From Kordiimonas aquimaris (lineage in GTDB: Bacteria; Pseudomonadota; Alphaproteobacteria; Sphingomonadales; Kordiimonadaceae), in NCBI RefSeq assembly GCF_025574485.1, contig NZ_JAOBPO010000001.1, positions 193,501 to 257,500 of the forward strand: 64,000 bases of DNA. Direction: 5' to 3'. Below are positions 25,311 to 49,360 of this stretch, in pieces. The notes beneath the pieces were generated by a model that did not search any database, was not told the DNA's origin, and saw only the letters and a program-made list of their open reading frames with translations. Every line of letters begins with the position of its first letter. Position 1 is the stretch's first letter. Position numbers and translations under genes: made by a program.

Positions 25311-26099
25311 TTAAATCCGAGTACCGGAATGGATTGCAACAACGCCAGCAGACATAGTGCGCCACCGCGTACGCGAGAATCCAGCGACCTTAATCATTGC
25401 ATCAAATTTTTGAGGCGCAGGGAATCGGCGAATCGATTCGACAAGATATTGATAACTATCACGATCACTCGCGACAACTTCACCCATTTTCGGAATAAAT
25501 TTAAAACTATAAGCATCGTAAGCCTGCTGCAAAACAGGTACGACCTCTGGGCTGAACTCAAGACAGTAGAATGTACCGCCCGGCTTAAGCACGCGGTAAG
25601 CATCCGCAAGTGCGTCTTCAACGCGTGTTACGTTACGAATACCAAAGGCAATTGTATATACATCCATCGAACGATCAGGGAACGGTAACTGCATGGCATC
25701 GCCGCACACAAATTCTGTTGCAGCGTCATATCCCTTCTTCTCGGCGCGTCCAGCGCCTACACGCAGCATCTCCGCGTTGATATCACATACTGTTACGTGC
25801 CCACCCGCTGCAGCATCCAGAAAACGAAAAGCGATATCTCCCGTTCCACCAGCCACATCAAGCAGACGCATGCCTGGTCGGGGGTTGATACTGTCAATCA
25901 ACGAATCTTTCCATAATCGGTGCACGCCGACACTCATGACATCGTTCATCACATCATACTGATCAGCAACGGAGTTGAAGACACCTTTTACCAAGTTTGC
26001 CTTGTCATTTTCATTGACGGTTTTGTAGCCAAAGTGCGTTTGCTTGCTTGGCTCACCTATCGTTTCTGTCTTATCGTTATGTTGATTTGATTCTGGCAT
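25311..26099 (-). CDS. ubiE: UbiE C-methyltransferase
   Basis: SAM-dependent methylase for the ubiquinone (and, where present, menaquinone) ring. The 262-aa protein shows the SAM motif I LLDVAGGTGDIAFRF, the YDVMNDVMSVGVHRLWK signature and IAFGIRNVTRVEDAL. Its N-terminal 20 residues are a polar extension. It precedes ubiB by 11 bases and diverges from mutM, the usual alphaproteobacterial arrangement. Confidence 0.96.
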   Translation of the reverse strand: MPESNQHNDKTETIGEPSKQTHFGYKTVNENDKANLVKGVFNSVADQYDVMNDVMSVGVHRLWKDSLIDSINPRPGMRLLDVAGGTGDIAFRFLDAAAGGHVTVCDINAEMLRVGAGRAEKKGYDAATEFVCGDAMQLPFPDRSMDVYTIAFGIRNVTRVEDALADAYRVLKPGGTFYCLEFSPEVVPVLQQAYDAYSFKFIPKMGEVVASDRDSYQYLVESIRRFPAPQKFDAMIKVAGFSRTRWRTMSAGVVAIHSGTRI

Positions 26100-28803: not shown

Positions 28804-29314
28804 TCAAATATTGCGATTCGGTATCCAATTACCGGTCAAAACATGTTTCCAAAGCCGCCTTTTCTACAGGGCGGCTTTTTTGTTATTGTCATCAATGCGA
28901 ACAAAAAGAGCACATATCTTGTGCCTTGATCGCAAGAAACCACATATTGTGTCCTCTTTCGATTCACGCCATAGAGAGATTTAACTGATTTCTGTCAAGC
29001 GATAGATTCAGTTGCTGCATCCCCATGCTCTATGTAATCTGACTGCCTGACCGCGGTGGGTCGCATGGGCAATCAAACTCCCTCACAGGGGGGCGTCCAT
29101 AAGCTTTTCAGGCATGAAGTCATGCTGGAAAAGCGCCACCGAAAACAACATATTGCTGAAGACGGGCCGCGCCCTTTATGCGCTCGTATAGAGTTTTGCC
29201 GTATCGTGGCTTGCTGCTTTCTTTTGCGAACGATGTAACATTGTATTCAGGGGGCTGATTGCAATGTATAGCCGACGAATAACCGCCTGAAGGCGAAAAG
29301 GAGAATATTTTCCG
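28804..29314. promoter_or_regulatory. rpsT-dnaA intergenic region
   Basis: A 511-base gap with no supported gene. It starts with the rpsT terminator. Two related palindromes follow, CACATATCTTGTG at 28911-28923 and CACATATTGTG at 28941-28951, with centres 29 bases apart. Two GANTC sites lie at 28961-28965 and 29005-29009. Just before dnaA is the small hairpin CGCC-TGAA-GGCG (28284 + 1000, that is 29284-29295), followed by AAGGAG. It probably holds the dnaA promoter and a long leader. No cluster of DnaA boxes is seen, so an origin here is not supported. Confidence 0.55.
28851..28881 (+). terminator. Rho-independent terminator after rpsT
   Basis: AAAGCCGCC pairs with GGCGGCTTT around a ten-base loop, with six T residues after the stem. 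Confidence 0.93.
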
Positions 29315-30736
29315 ATGTCGGATTGGGAGGAAGATAGAATGGGGCCAACAAAGGGGCTTGAAGCAGACATGGATATGCAAGGAGAAACTCCTTGGAATCG
29401 GGTGTGCAGCAAATTCAAGAAAGAATTTGGGCAGCAGGCTTATACAACATGGATTGGTCAGTTAGGATACCGCGGTGTTGATGGAGGCACTGTGGAATTA
29501 ACGGCACCAACGAAGTTTGTCCGCGATTGGATTCAGCGCAACTATGGCCCACGCCTCAAAGATTTCTTCTATGCAGAAGACTCGCGCGTCAAAAGTTTGA
29601 GCATCCGTTTGGCTGCCAAAGGCGCTACACCTGCAATCCCTTCACAAACTGTCGTGCGCGCAGGCAAAACTGACGACCAACCTTCACTATCCGGCGTTGA
29701 AAATGTTGATGAACAAGCGGCTCTTGATCCAAAGTATACATTTGAAAGCTTTGTAGTTGGCAAATCAAACGAGCTGGCATACGCCGCTGCCAAACGTATT
29801 GCAGAATCTGACGATGTATCTTTCAACCCACTGTTCCTGCATGGCGGGGTTGGCCTTGGTAAAACACATCTGATGCATGCAATTGCTTGGGAAGTTAAAC
29901 GCCGCACTCCTGAAAAACGTGTTGCTTATGTTTCCGCTGAAAAGTTTATGTTCGAGTTTATCTCGGCCCTTCGTTTTAAAGACACACACGCTTTCAAACA
30001 GAAATTTCGCAACGTAAATCTGCTTATGGTGGATGATGTGCAATTCATCGCCAATAAAAACAGTACTCAGGAAGAGTTTTTCCATACCTTCAATACGCTT
30101 ATTGATAACCGTTGCCAGGTTGTGATCACCGCAGACCGATCACCAACAGACCTTGAGGGCATTGAAGAACGTATTATTTCCCGCCTTGGCTGGGGACTGG
30201 TAGCAGATATTCATCCTACAGATTATGAGCTCCGCCTTGGTATTCTCCAATCCAAATCTGAAAGTGCACCAAATGTTGATGTGCCTGTTGATGTTCTTGA
30301 ATTTTTAGCGCGCCGGATCATTTCGAATGTTCGTGAGCTTGAGGGCGCATTAAATCGTGTCATGGCCTATGCAACACTTGTTGGGCGCCCTATCACAATG
30401 GATATGACACGTGACGTGCTGCAAGACCTTATTCGCGCCAATGATCGCAAGGTAACCATTGATGAAATACAGCGCACAGTAGCTGAATACTATAATCTGC
30501 GCCTTTCTGAAATGCTGTCACAGCGCCGCAGCCGCATGATTGCGCGCCCACGGCAAACAGCAATGTATTTATGTAAGCAGCTTACAAGCCGCAGCCTGCC
30601 TGAGATTGGCAGGCGATTTGGCGGGCGAGACCACACTACGGTTATGCATGCCGTGCGCAAGATTGATGACCTATGCAAATCTGACAGTCAACTTGACGAA
30701 GACATCACACGCCTGACACGTTTACTGGAAGGATAA
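29315..30736 (+). CDS. dnaA: Chromosomal replication initiator DnaA
   Basis: AAA+ ATPase that opens the replication origin. Domain I lies near residues 30-100, domain III carries Walker A (GGVGLGKTHLMHA) and Walker B (LLMVDDVQFI), and domain IV has the DnaA-box-binding signature GGRDHTTVMHAVRKI. The 473-aa length is usual. ATG 29315 follows AAGGAG by 11 bases; ATG 29339, eight codons in, has GGGAGG upstream and may be used instead. It ends in a strong terminator, so dnaN has its own promoter. Confidence 0.98.
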   Translation: MSDWEEDRMGPTKGLEADMDMQGETPWNRVCSKFKKEFGQQAYTTWIGQLGYRGVDGGTVELTAPTKFVRDWIQRNYGPRLKDFFYAEDSRVKSLSIRLAAKGATPAIPSQTVVRAGKTDDQPSLSGVENVDEQAALDPKYTFESFVVGKSNELAYAAAKRIAESDDVSFNPLFLHGGVGLGKTHLMHAIAWEVKRRTPEKRVAYVSAEKFMFEFISALRFKDTHAFKQKFRNVNLLMVDDVQFIANKNSTQEEFFHTFNTLIDNRCQVVITADRSPTDLEGIEERIISRLGWGLVADIHPTDYELRLGILQSKSESAPNVDVPVDVLEFLARRIISNVRELEGALNRVMAYATLVGRPITMDMTRDVLQDLIRANDRKVTIDEIQRTVAEYYNLRLSEMLSQRRSRMIARPRQTAMYLCKQLTSRSLPEIGRRFGGRDHTTVMHAVRKIDDLCKSDSQLDEDITRLTRLLEG

Positions 30737-48337: not shown

Positions 48338-49153
48338 TTACGCTTTCAGCCGGTATCCTTTTTTGAAAACCTGATAAACGGCGAACATAAGCACAATATT
48401 GATTGCAAGCGTAAAACTGATGCCAACAAGCAAACTACTGTCTGCACGATCAATAAAACCGTAGCGAAAACCATCAATTAGATAGAAAAATGGATTGATA
48501 CTGGAGAATATCTGCCAGCCTTCACTCAATCGCTCTACCGAGTAAAACGTGCCCGATAATAAACTAAGCGGCGCAATCACAAAATTGGTAACAGCAGCAG
48601 AATGATCAAACTTCTCTGCCCACACACCAGTAAGCACGCCCATAAGGGATAGCATCATACTGGCAGCAAGGGCAAAATAGAGCACAGCCCAAAGGTGAGC
48701 AACTGACATACTTATACCGGGCATAAAAGCGAAAGCCATACCAACAGAAAGCCCGACCACGATACCTCGCGTAACACCACCCATCACGAAACCGATTGTA
48801 AGCTCCAGGGCAGACAAAGGCGGCATCAAGGTGTCAATAATATTGCCTTGCACCTTGGCAATCAGGATAGACGAGGACGTATTGGCAAAAGCATTCTGCA
48901 AAATCGCCATAACAATCAGGCCCGGAGCAAGGAACTGACCATACGGCATATCAGCAACCATGCGACCACGGCCGCCCAGCGCCAGCGAGAATATTACCAT
49001 GAACAAAATCGTCGTAACGGCAGGTGCTGCGAGCGTTTGCGCCCAAACCTTCATGAAGCGCCGGGTTTCCTTTAGGTAAAGCGTTTGCAAGCCAACCCAG
49101 TTAACGCGGCCAATAGTGCGACCACCCAGAGGCGGGTATTTTCCAGTATTCAT
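48338..49153 (-). CDS. ABC-2 type transporter permease
   Basis: A 271-aa six-helix permease with the ABC-2 motif GLSEGW-type segment (RLSEGWQIFSSINPFFYLI) before the last helices, as in YadH/NodJ-like exporters. No ATPase gene is adjacent, so the partner must be encoded elsewhere. ATG 49153 has GGAAGAG nine bases upstream; GTG 49189 and ATG 49171 also open the frame. Cargo unknown. Confidence 0.85.
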   Translation of the reverse strand: MNTGKYPPLGGRTIGRVNWVGLQTLYLKETRRFMKVWAQTLAAPAVTTILFMVIFSLALGGRGRMVADMPYGQFLAPGLIVMAILQNAFANTSSSILIAKVQGNIIDTLMPPLSALELTIGFVMGGVTRGIVVGLSVGMAFAFMPGISMSVAHLWAVLYFALAASMMLSLMGVLTGVWAEKFDHSAAVTNFVIAPLSLLSGTFYSVERLSEGWQIFSSINPFFYLIDGFRYGFIDRADSSLLVGISFTLAINIVLMFAVYQVFKKGYRLKA

Positions 49154-49288
49154 ATCTGCCGTCTCTTCCATTACCGAATGGTCTACCACTGTTTATTACT
49201 CCGAAGCTCTATCACTTTTAACAAGTTCCTTCATATGGTGAGACATGAGGTCTTGGCAAGAGGGGGCGCAAAGCGATATAAGAAGTGC

Positions 49289-49312
49289 GAATCTCGACTC
49301 GTACGTCGAATC
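49289..49312. promoter_or_regulatory. Three GANTC methylation sites before gcrA
   Basis: GAATC (49289-49293), GACTC (49296-49300) and GAATC (49308-49312) lie within 24 bases, about 50-70 bases upstream of gcrA. GANTC is the CcrM methylase site; GcrA itself acts on methylated GANTC promoters in related bacteria. Random expectation is about one per 256 bases. Confidence 0.65.
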
Positions 49313-49360
49313 AGATATAGTGATAAGTCGAAAAACGACAAAAATTCAAAGGACGGACCT

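Follow-up and report, generated by a model that had tools for sequence, protein, structure and literature searches.

The gcrA locus and its predicted promoter

The window, a stretch of 64,000 nucleotides of the Kordiimonas aquimaris genome, contains a gene for a sigma-70 cofactor that is divergent from an ABC-2 transporter permease gene and is preceded by three GANTC sites (Table 1). An earlier note made from the sequence had named this gene gcrA, and the Pfam and PDB matches upheld that assignment; it also matched the NCBIfam model NF050816 (E = 2.2e-40), under that model's cut-off. The −35 and −10 hexamers place the predicted transcription start at about position 49289. The DNA upstream of gcrA was read in 57 of 59 genomes, 28 from the family and 29 from elsewhere in the order. 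The other two were G005, excluded on account of a contig end, and G056, where the search for gcrA gave no hit. Among the readable family genomes, the core promoter was absent in G022. The CATATG palindrome was found at exactly the same offset in all 18 readable members of the genus and in none of the nine other family members with the core promoter. G008 and G009 carry a further CATATG copy 10 bp on.

Table 1 Features of the gcrA locus and GANTC clusters of the K. aquimaris genome (bare numbers are window positions)
Feature	Position	Strand	Evidence or remark
gcrA, sigma-70 cofactor, 138 aa	49361..49777	+	Pfam PF07750, E = 3.3e-43; PDB 7ye1, E = 1.5e-32
gcrA predicted −35, TTGGCA	49253..49258	+	TTGGCA-N18-TATAA/G in 27 of 28 readable family upstream regions
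gcrA predicted −10, TATAAG	49277..49282	+	Conserved core promoter; inferred +1 at ~49289
Likely ribosome-binding site, AAGGACGG	49349..49356	+	Direct sequence reading
ABC-2 transporter permease, divergent from gcrA	48338..49153	−	PF01061, E = 1e-29
CATATG palindrome, candidate regulator site	49232..49237	.	Starts 21 bp before the −35 hexamer
GANTC site 1 (CGAATCT; GAATC)	49289..49293	.	Predicted ~+1; 7 of 8 clade genomes share the offset, G015 has the site shifted
GANTC site 2 (CGACTCG; GACTC)	49296..49300	.	Minus strand fits YGAKTCK; all 8 clade genomes share the offset
GANTC site 3 (CGAATCA; GAATC; minus strand TGATTCG)	49308..49312	.	7 of 8 clade genomes share the offset, G016 has lost the site
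Genome cluster before gcrA
Genome cluster before ccrM	L151:1501-1551 (G000:C21:272658-272708)
Genome cluster at start of DivIC-domain gene	L238:1501-1538
Genome cluster before DUF2336/SpbR-like gene	L155:1501-1538		Under the SpbR model's cut-off
Genome cluster at end of an ORF, before PAS_5 gene
Genome cluster before protein with a weak repeat match alone	L147
Genome cluster between MaoC and SDR genes
Genome cluster inside cysS coding sequence			Named by eye
Genome cluster inside ubiE coding sequence			Named by eye

A GANTC triplet at the start of gcrA

The earlier report of three GANTC sites within 24 bases was confirmed, with the sites at 49289, 49296 and 49308 beginning 72, 65 and 53 bp before the gcrA start. 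On the promoter reading, the triplet is predicted to cover about +1 to +24 of the gcrA transcript, over the first transcribed bases. The note had placed them in the gcrA promoter region; relative to the core promoter, all three are 3′ of the conserved −10 and not upstream of it, and the placement between or beside the −35 and −10 that is seen in Caulobacter-type GcrA activation was not found. The expectation of one site per 256 bases understated their rarity: the window holds 82 GANTC compared with a mean of 175 in dinucleotide shuffles, an approximately twofold depletion. We counted 518 GANTC, or 1.12 per kb (1.03 inside long ORFs and 1.69 outside), in 464 kb made up of the window and 20 stretches of the K. 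aquimaris genome, a non-random sample because the window was picked for the finding and C21:263001-283000 for ccrM.

With random placement, the probability of at least one triplet within 24 bp anywhere in the window is approximately 0.02, and at the non-coding GANTC rate that of three sites in one given 24-bp stretch is approximately 6e-6. The 464 kb contained three triplets of at most 24 bp against 0.11 expected: before gcrA, at ccrM, and inside a coding sequence that we take by eye to be ubiE. The last of these, at 25422-25439, is the second triplet of the window, and because it is intragenic, a triplet alone is no proof of function. We compared GANTC with other patterns in the family leaders, defined as the 60 bases after the −10 in the 27 family genomes with the core promoter. 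GANTC was the commonest of 32 pentanucleotide patterns (35 occurrences in 1589 bases), and the runner-up, CGNAT, which overlaps CGANTC, occurred 17 times; these counts are non-independent events because the genomes are related. Ten of the 27 leaders had at least three GANTC, compared with a single leader in which one of the other 31 patterns reached three. Together, the shuffles, the 464-kb rates and the pentanucleotide comparison indicate that GANTC at the gcrA promoter and leader exceeds chance.

Conservation within and beyond the family

A tree built from the CcrM and GcrA proteins and a protein that we take by eye to be SufB, with missing proteins treated as gaps, placed K. aquimaris in a clade of eight genomes (support 1.0) whose GANTC sites are offset by 12, 19 and 31 from the −10. 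All three sites are at these offsets in six of the eight genomes, and G015 and G016 deviate. Mean pairwise identity in this clade is 0.96 for the 12 GA/TC columns, 0.59 for the linkers and 0.48–0.49 for the flanks, and 12 random columns reach 0.96 in about 1 in 10,000 draws (P ≈ 1e-4). The C before each site is also invariant by column. That GANTC is kept in the nearest relatives while the neighbouring bases drift points to a real control element. We judge the gcrA site cluster very likely to be functional.

The exact-register triplet is confined to this one clade. Fourteen of the 27 family leaders have no GANTC at all, which implies that the element is dispensable or has been replaced. Beyond the clade, G007 carries a differently spaced set of three sites, G011 has one and G019 two, and G020 and G027, from another genus, have GANTC triplets whose spacing differs from that of the clade. 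Across the 28 family genomes, the 200 bp upstream of gcrA have a GANTC density of 8.0 per kb, compared with 0.72 beyond 400 bp. Conservation of the sites in relatives, a point raised in the earlier note, is seen in the clade but not in the 14 empty leaders. G022 (L055) packs six GANTC into 62 bp, at −210 to −153 relative to gcrA. GANTC clusters near gcrA can also arise otherwise, since six genomes carry a cluster of two or three sites 220–267 bp before gcrA, and G025 a six-site cluster, that by eye are in or at the coding sequence of the divergent gene. We rejected the −267 to −220 cluster of the six relatives as a replacement element; it is probably a coincidence, because it lies by eye inside the permease coding sequence with codon-fixed spacing.

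In 75 loci of a wider collection (80 loci minus five taken as family; L170, named Kordiimonadaceae, was kept at 60% identity), GANTC occurred at 4.3 per kb over the 200 bp preceding gcrA, compared with 1.7 elsewhere (Wilcoxon P = 0.001), although the median before gcrA was zero. Removing 16 near relatives by hand left 59 loci, with P = 0.0001. Three GANTC within 50 bp were found at five of the 80 loci, of which three belong to genomes G018, G010 and G007 and two, L217 and L227, lie elsewhere. The 29 order relatives outside the family had 1.7 per kb before gcrA compared with 0.9 farther upstream.

GANTC arrays at ccrM and elsewhere in the genome

The genome encodes a CcrM orthologue with a RAMA domain, which matched the CcrM structure 6pbd over residues 31–380 of 381 (E = 6.5e-163) and the NCBIfam CcrM model with E = 1.9e-189, under that model's cut-off. 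The earlier note took unconserved sites together with a genome lacking ccrM as a refutation of its proposal, a combination that was not found: the gene is present and the sites are conserved in the nearest clade. The DNA upstream of ccrM was readable in 27 family genomes (no hit was obtained in G002, and no frame could be read in G024). In 25 of these, GANTC sites keep an exact register to a TTGAC box, at −7, +8 and +19 counted from its first T, and 21 have an additional site at −20; G023 and G026 lack that register and have other GANTC clusters. The ccrM sites surround, and sit between, the probable −35 and −10 boxes. This array is a far stronger signal than the gcrA triplet. A search of 192 genomes gave a hit in 138, and the 30 other alphaproteobacterial ccrM loci with the best RAMA scores were examined, with guessed start codons. 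Of these, 20 had at least three GANTC in 60 bp, and the density was 18 per kb compared with 1.8 elsewhere. A brief literature search for the ccrM promoter with GANTC and for GANTC clusters found no earlier description of such an array; PMC2877005 discusses the ccrM promoter in connection with CtrA. Exact copies of the full CtrA motif, TTAA-N7-TTAA, were found within 250 bp of gcrA in 0 of 28 genomes and of ccrM in 0 of 27, and CtrA control was rejected on that exact motif, a score that covers neither half sites nor degenerate motifs. GANTC arrays at both ccrM and gcrA suggest that methylation may gate the writer of the mark as well as its reader.

Pattern searches of the 3.8-Mb genome found nine places with at least three GANTC at gaps of up to 14 bp (Table 1), a count that covers the searched patterns and so leaves aside clusters starting with GAGTC and ending with GACTC. 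Two of the nine are inside coding sequences, presumably cysS and ubiE. A reversed-pattern control gave 33 and 6 matches against 2 and 0 real ones for the GACTC-first pattern, a level too high to be used as a clean background; for each of the other two patterns it gave 1 and 1, where the real matches numbered 9 and 11 for one and 3 and 4 for the other. The clusters at the DivIC-domain and DUF2336/SpbR-like genes hint at a small, cluster-marked set of cell-cycle genes.

Likely methylation control of gcrA and its direction

The closest published precedent is gcrA of Agrobacterium tumefaciens, which has six GANTC upstream and whose promoter activity is lowered by CcrM methylation, an effect also seen in Escherichia coli, where alphaproteobacterial regulators are absent (PMC11514494). 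A burst upon hemimethylation after replication was proposed there, and methylation control of gcrA is therefore not new. The two genes are alike in having a GANTC cluster before gcrA. In A. tumefaciens, however, the six sites are spread over 250 bp and the start site was not predictable for the authors, whereas K. aquimaris, from a distant lineage, has three sites in 24 bp, in a set position next to a conserved promoter. Considering CcrM, GcrA, the clade conservation and this precedent, it is likely that gcrA transcription depends on methylation state, as the earlier note had suggested. The activation by GcrA that it implied is not supported: the gcrA sites are predicted at about +1 to +24, those of ccrM lie around and between its boxes, and methylation represses in A. 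tumefaciens.

We favour, as somewhat the more probable state of affairs, methylation-sensitive control of gcrA, most probably a repression that is relieved by replication, which is opposite in sign to the earlier proposal. The triplet would be a control element kept by selection and methylated by CcrM, lying on the first ~24 bases to be transcribed. Full methylation of the three sites would lower transcription from the TTGGCA/TATAAG promoter, and passage of the replication fork would leave them hemimethylated until CcrM returns, releasing gcrA for a burst. Repression might act through weaker promoter opening or escape, or through GcrA that occupies the methylated sites and stands in the way of RNA polymerase. 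At the core of this proposal are direct observations, namely the sites, the conserved promoter, GANTC letters that are better conserved than the bases around them, and the presence of ccrM and gcrA. We infer the in vivo methylation of the triplet, the start site and the timing, and the repressive sign is carried over by analogy from one distant species, A. tumefaciens. We counted in favour of replication-relieved repression the leader GANTC excess, the clade conservation, the triplets with other spacing, the six sites of G022, the density, the presence of CcrM and the methylation-lowered activity of the six-site A. tumefaciens promoter (PMC11514494). Counted against it were the 14 empty leaders, the clusters in coding sequence, the weak second promoter described below, and two Caulobacter reporters, ctrA P1 and CCNA_00697 (a top GcrA target, with three sites), that were unchanged by GANTC mutation, in a study where such mutation crippled four GcrA-dependent promoters (PMC3667746).

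Direct action of GcrA on the gcrA promoter is possible. A version of the favoured explanation with GcrA as the repressor is negative autoregulation, in which GcrA on the methylated sites at +1 to +24 blocks its own promoter. Sites across the start and early transcript would suit such a roadblock, and in A. tumefaciens a repressive role of GcrA at an antisense RNA promoter has been proposed (PMC11514494). Seven of the eight clade members have two sites that match the extended motif YGAKTCK, and G016 has one, but none of the three sites of G007 does so. Furthermore, PMC7403470 presents GcrA as a sigma activator of methylated promoters, and the A. tumefaciens gcrA effect is independent of GcrA (PMC11514494). 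We regard this version as doubtful. A search of the available literature collection found no paper on GcrA, GANTC and autoregulation together, nor on Kordiimonas and CcrM.

Methylation might instead activate gcrA, with GcrA and sigma-70 RNA polymerase driving the gene from the methylated sites, perhaps through a second, weak promoter match, TCGACT-N16-TATAGT (49294-49321, 9 of 12 positions), which would enclose two GANTC sites. This promoter would place GANTC in the −35 region and spacer, as in ccrM. YGAKTCK, matched by two of the three gcrA sites, is tied to GcrA activation in Caulobacter; Brevundimonas shows no such preference apart from a weak bias towards C at the preceding base (PMC7987155). 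G010 and G015 have TATAAG six bases beyond the TATAGT offset. Yet the match to TATAAT at this offset, 5 of 6 in K. aquimaris, is 2 to 4 in the other seven clade genomes, and G014 and G018 have at most 3 of 6 within 34–49 of the first −10 while retaining all three GANTC. We rejected TATAGT as the main gcrA promoter because it is poorly conserved in the clade. The conservation of the upstream core promoter and the methylation-repressed A. tumefaciens promoter also stand against activation, which we consider unlikely.

Retention of the triplet through shared descent alone, or for another cause (mRNA structure or some other DNA-binding protein, for example), would fit the restriction of the exact register to one clade and the empty leaders, but is quite improbable given how far the GA/TC columns exceed their neighbours in conservation and that other lineages have differently spaced clusters. 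Leader RNA folding, no better than in shuffled sequence (z = −0.31), was rejected as an explanation. MucR shielding of GANTC, known from Caulobacter (PMC5172544), was also rejected; no ROS_MUCR family gene was found in the K. aquimaris genome, which leaves it without a candidate protein.

The ccrM leader of Caulobacter crescentus carries GANTC sites. Methylation state "most probably" affects ccrM itself in that species (PMC3973325), which makes it, like K. aquimaris gcrA, an epigenetic-circuit gene thought to respond to its own mark, although ccrM is the writer gene and gcrA the reader gene. GANTC sites also occur at the Caulobacter ctrA P1, mipZ and podJ promoters, where GcrA is bound (PMC4287350, PMC3667746); the sites of ctrA P1 (−29/−28) and podJ P2 (−24) are upstream of the start, whereas those of K. 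aquimaris gcrA are at or after the predicted start. In Caulobacter, activation at 40–60 minutes is seen for start sites that have GANTC between −35 and −10, whereas those with GANTC elsewhere within 50 bp upstream are lowest at that time (PMC4287350). GANTC sites were also counted before cell-cycle genes in PMC2877005, where control could not be inferred from the counts.

Methylation control of gcrA, demonstrated in one plant pathogen, is suggested in a distant lineage as well, with a compact triplet geometry, tied to a conserved promoter, and a notable placement. This geometry offers a clean test of whether GANTC after the start represses and GANTC within the promoter activates. The ccrM array and gcrA triplet suggest that writer and reader can both be under the control of the mark itself. 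As a tentative and rather doubtful extension, the GANTC writer and reader of Kordiimonadaceae, neither of which has a full CtrA motif nearby, may be wired by methylation into a single circuit, in which ccrM would be activated by the reader through GANTC inside its promoter and gcrA, in part of the family, would be repressed by methylation on its first transcribed bases, possibly by GcrA. Position relative to the start would then set the sign, giving a replication-coupled oscillator.

Conserved nearness of gcrA to dnaA was rejected, as the two genes are ~19 kb apart in K. aquimaris but ~449 kb apart in G014, a genome with an identical triplet arrangement. GC skew along the window gave no decisive sign of the origin. 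In the window, dnaA precedes gcrA and extends from ~29315 (a guessed start) to beyond 30667, with a DnaA C-terminal domain match at 30458-30664, and is itself preceded by GANTC sites at 28815, 28961 and 29005.
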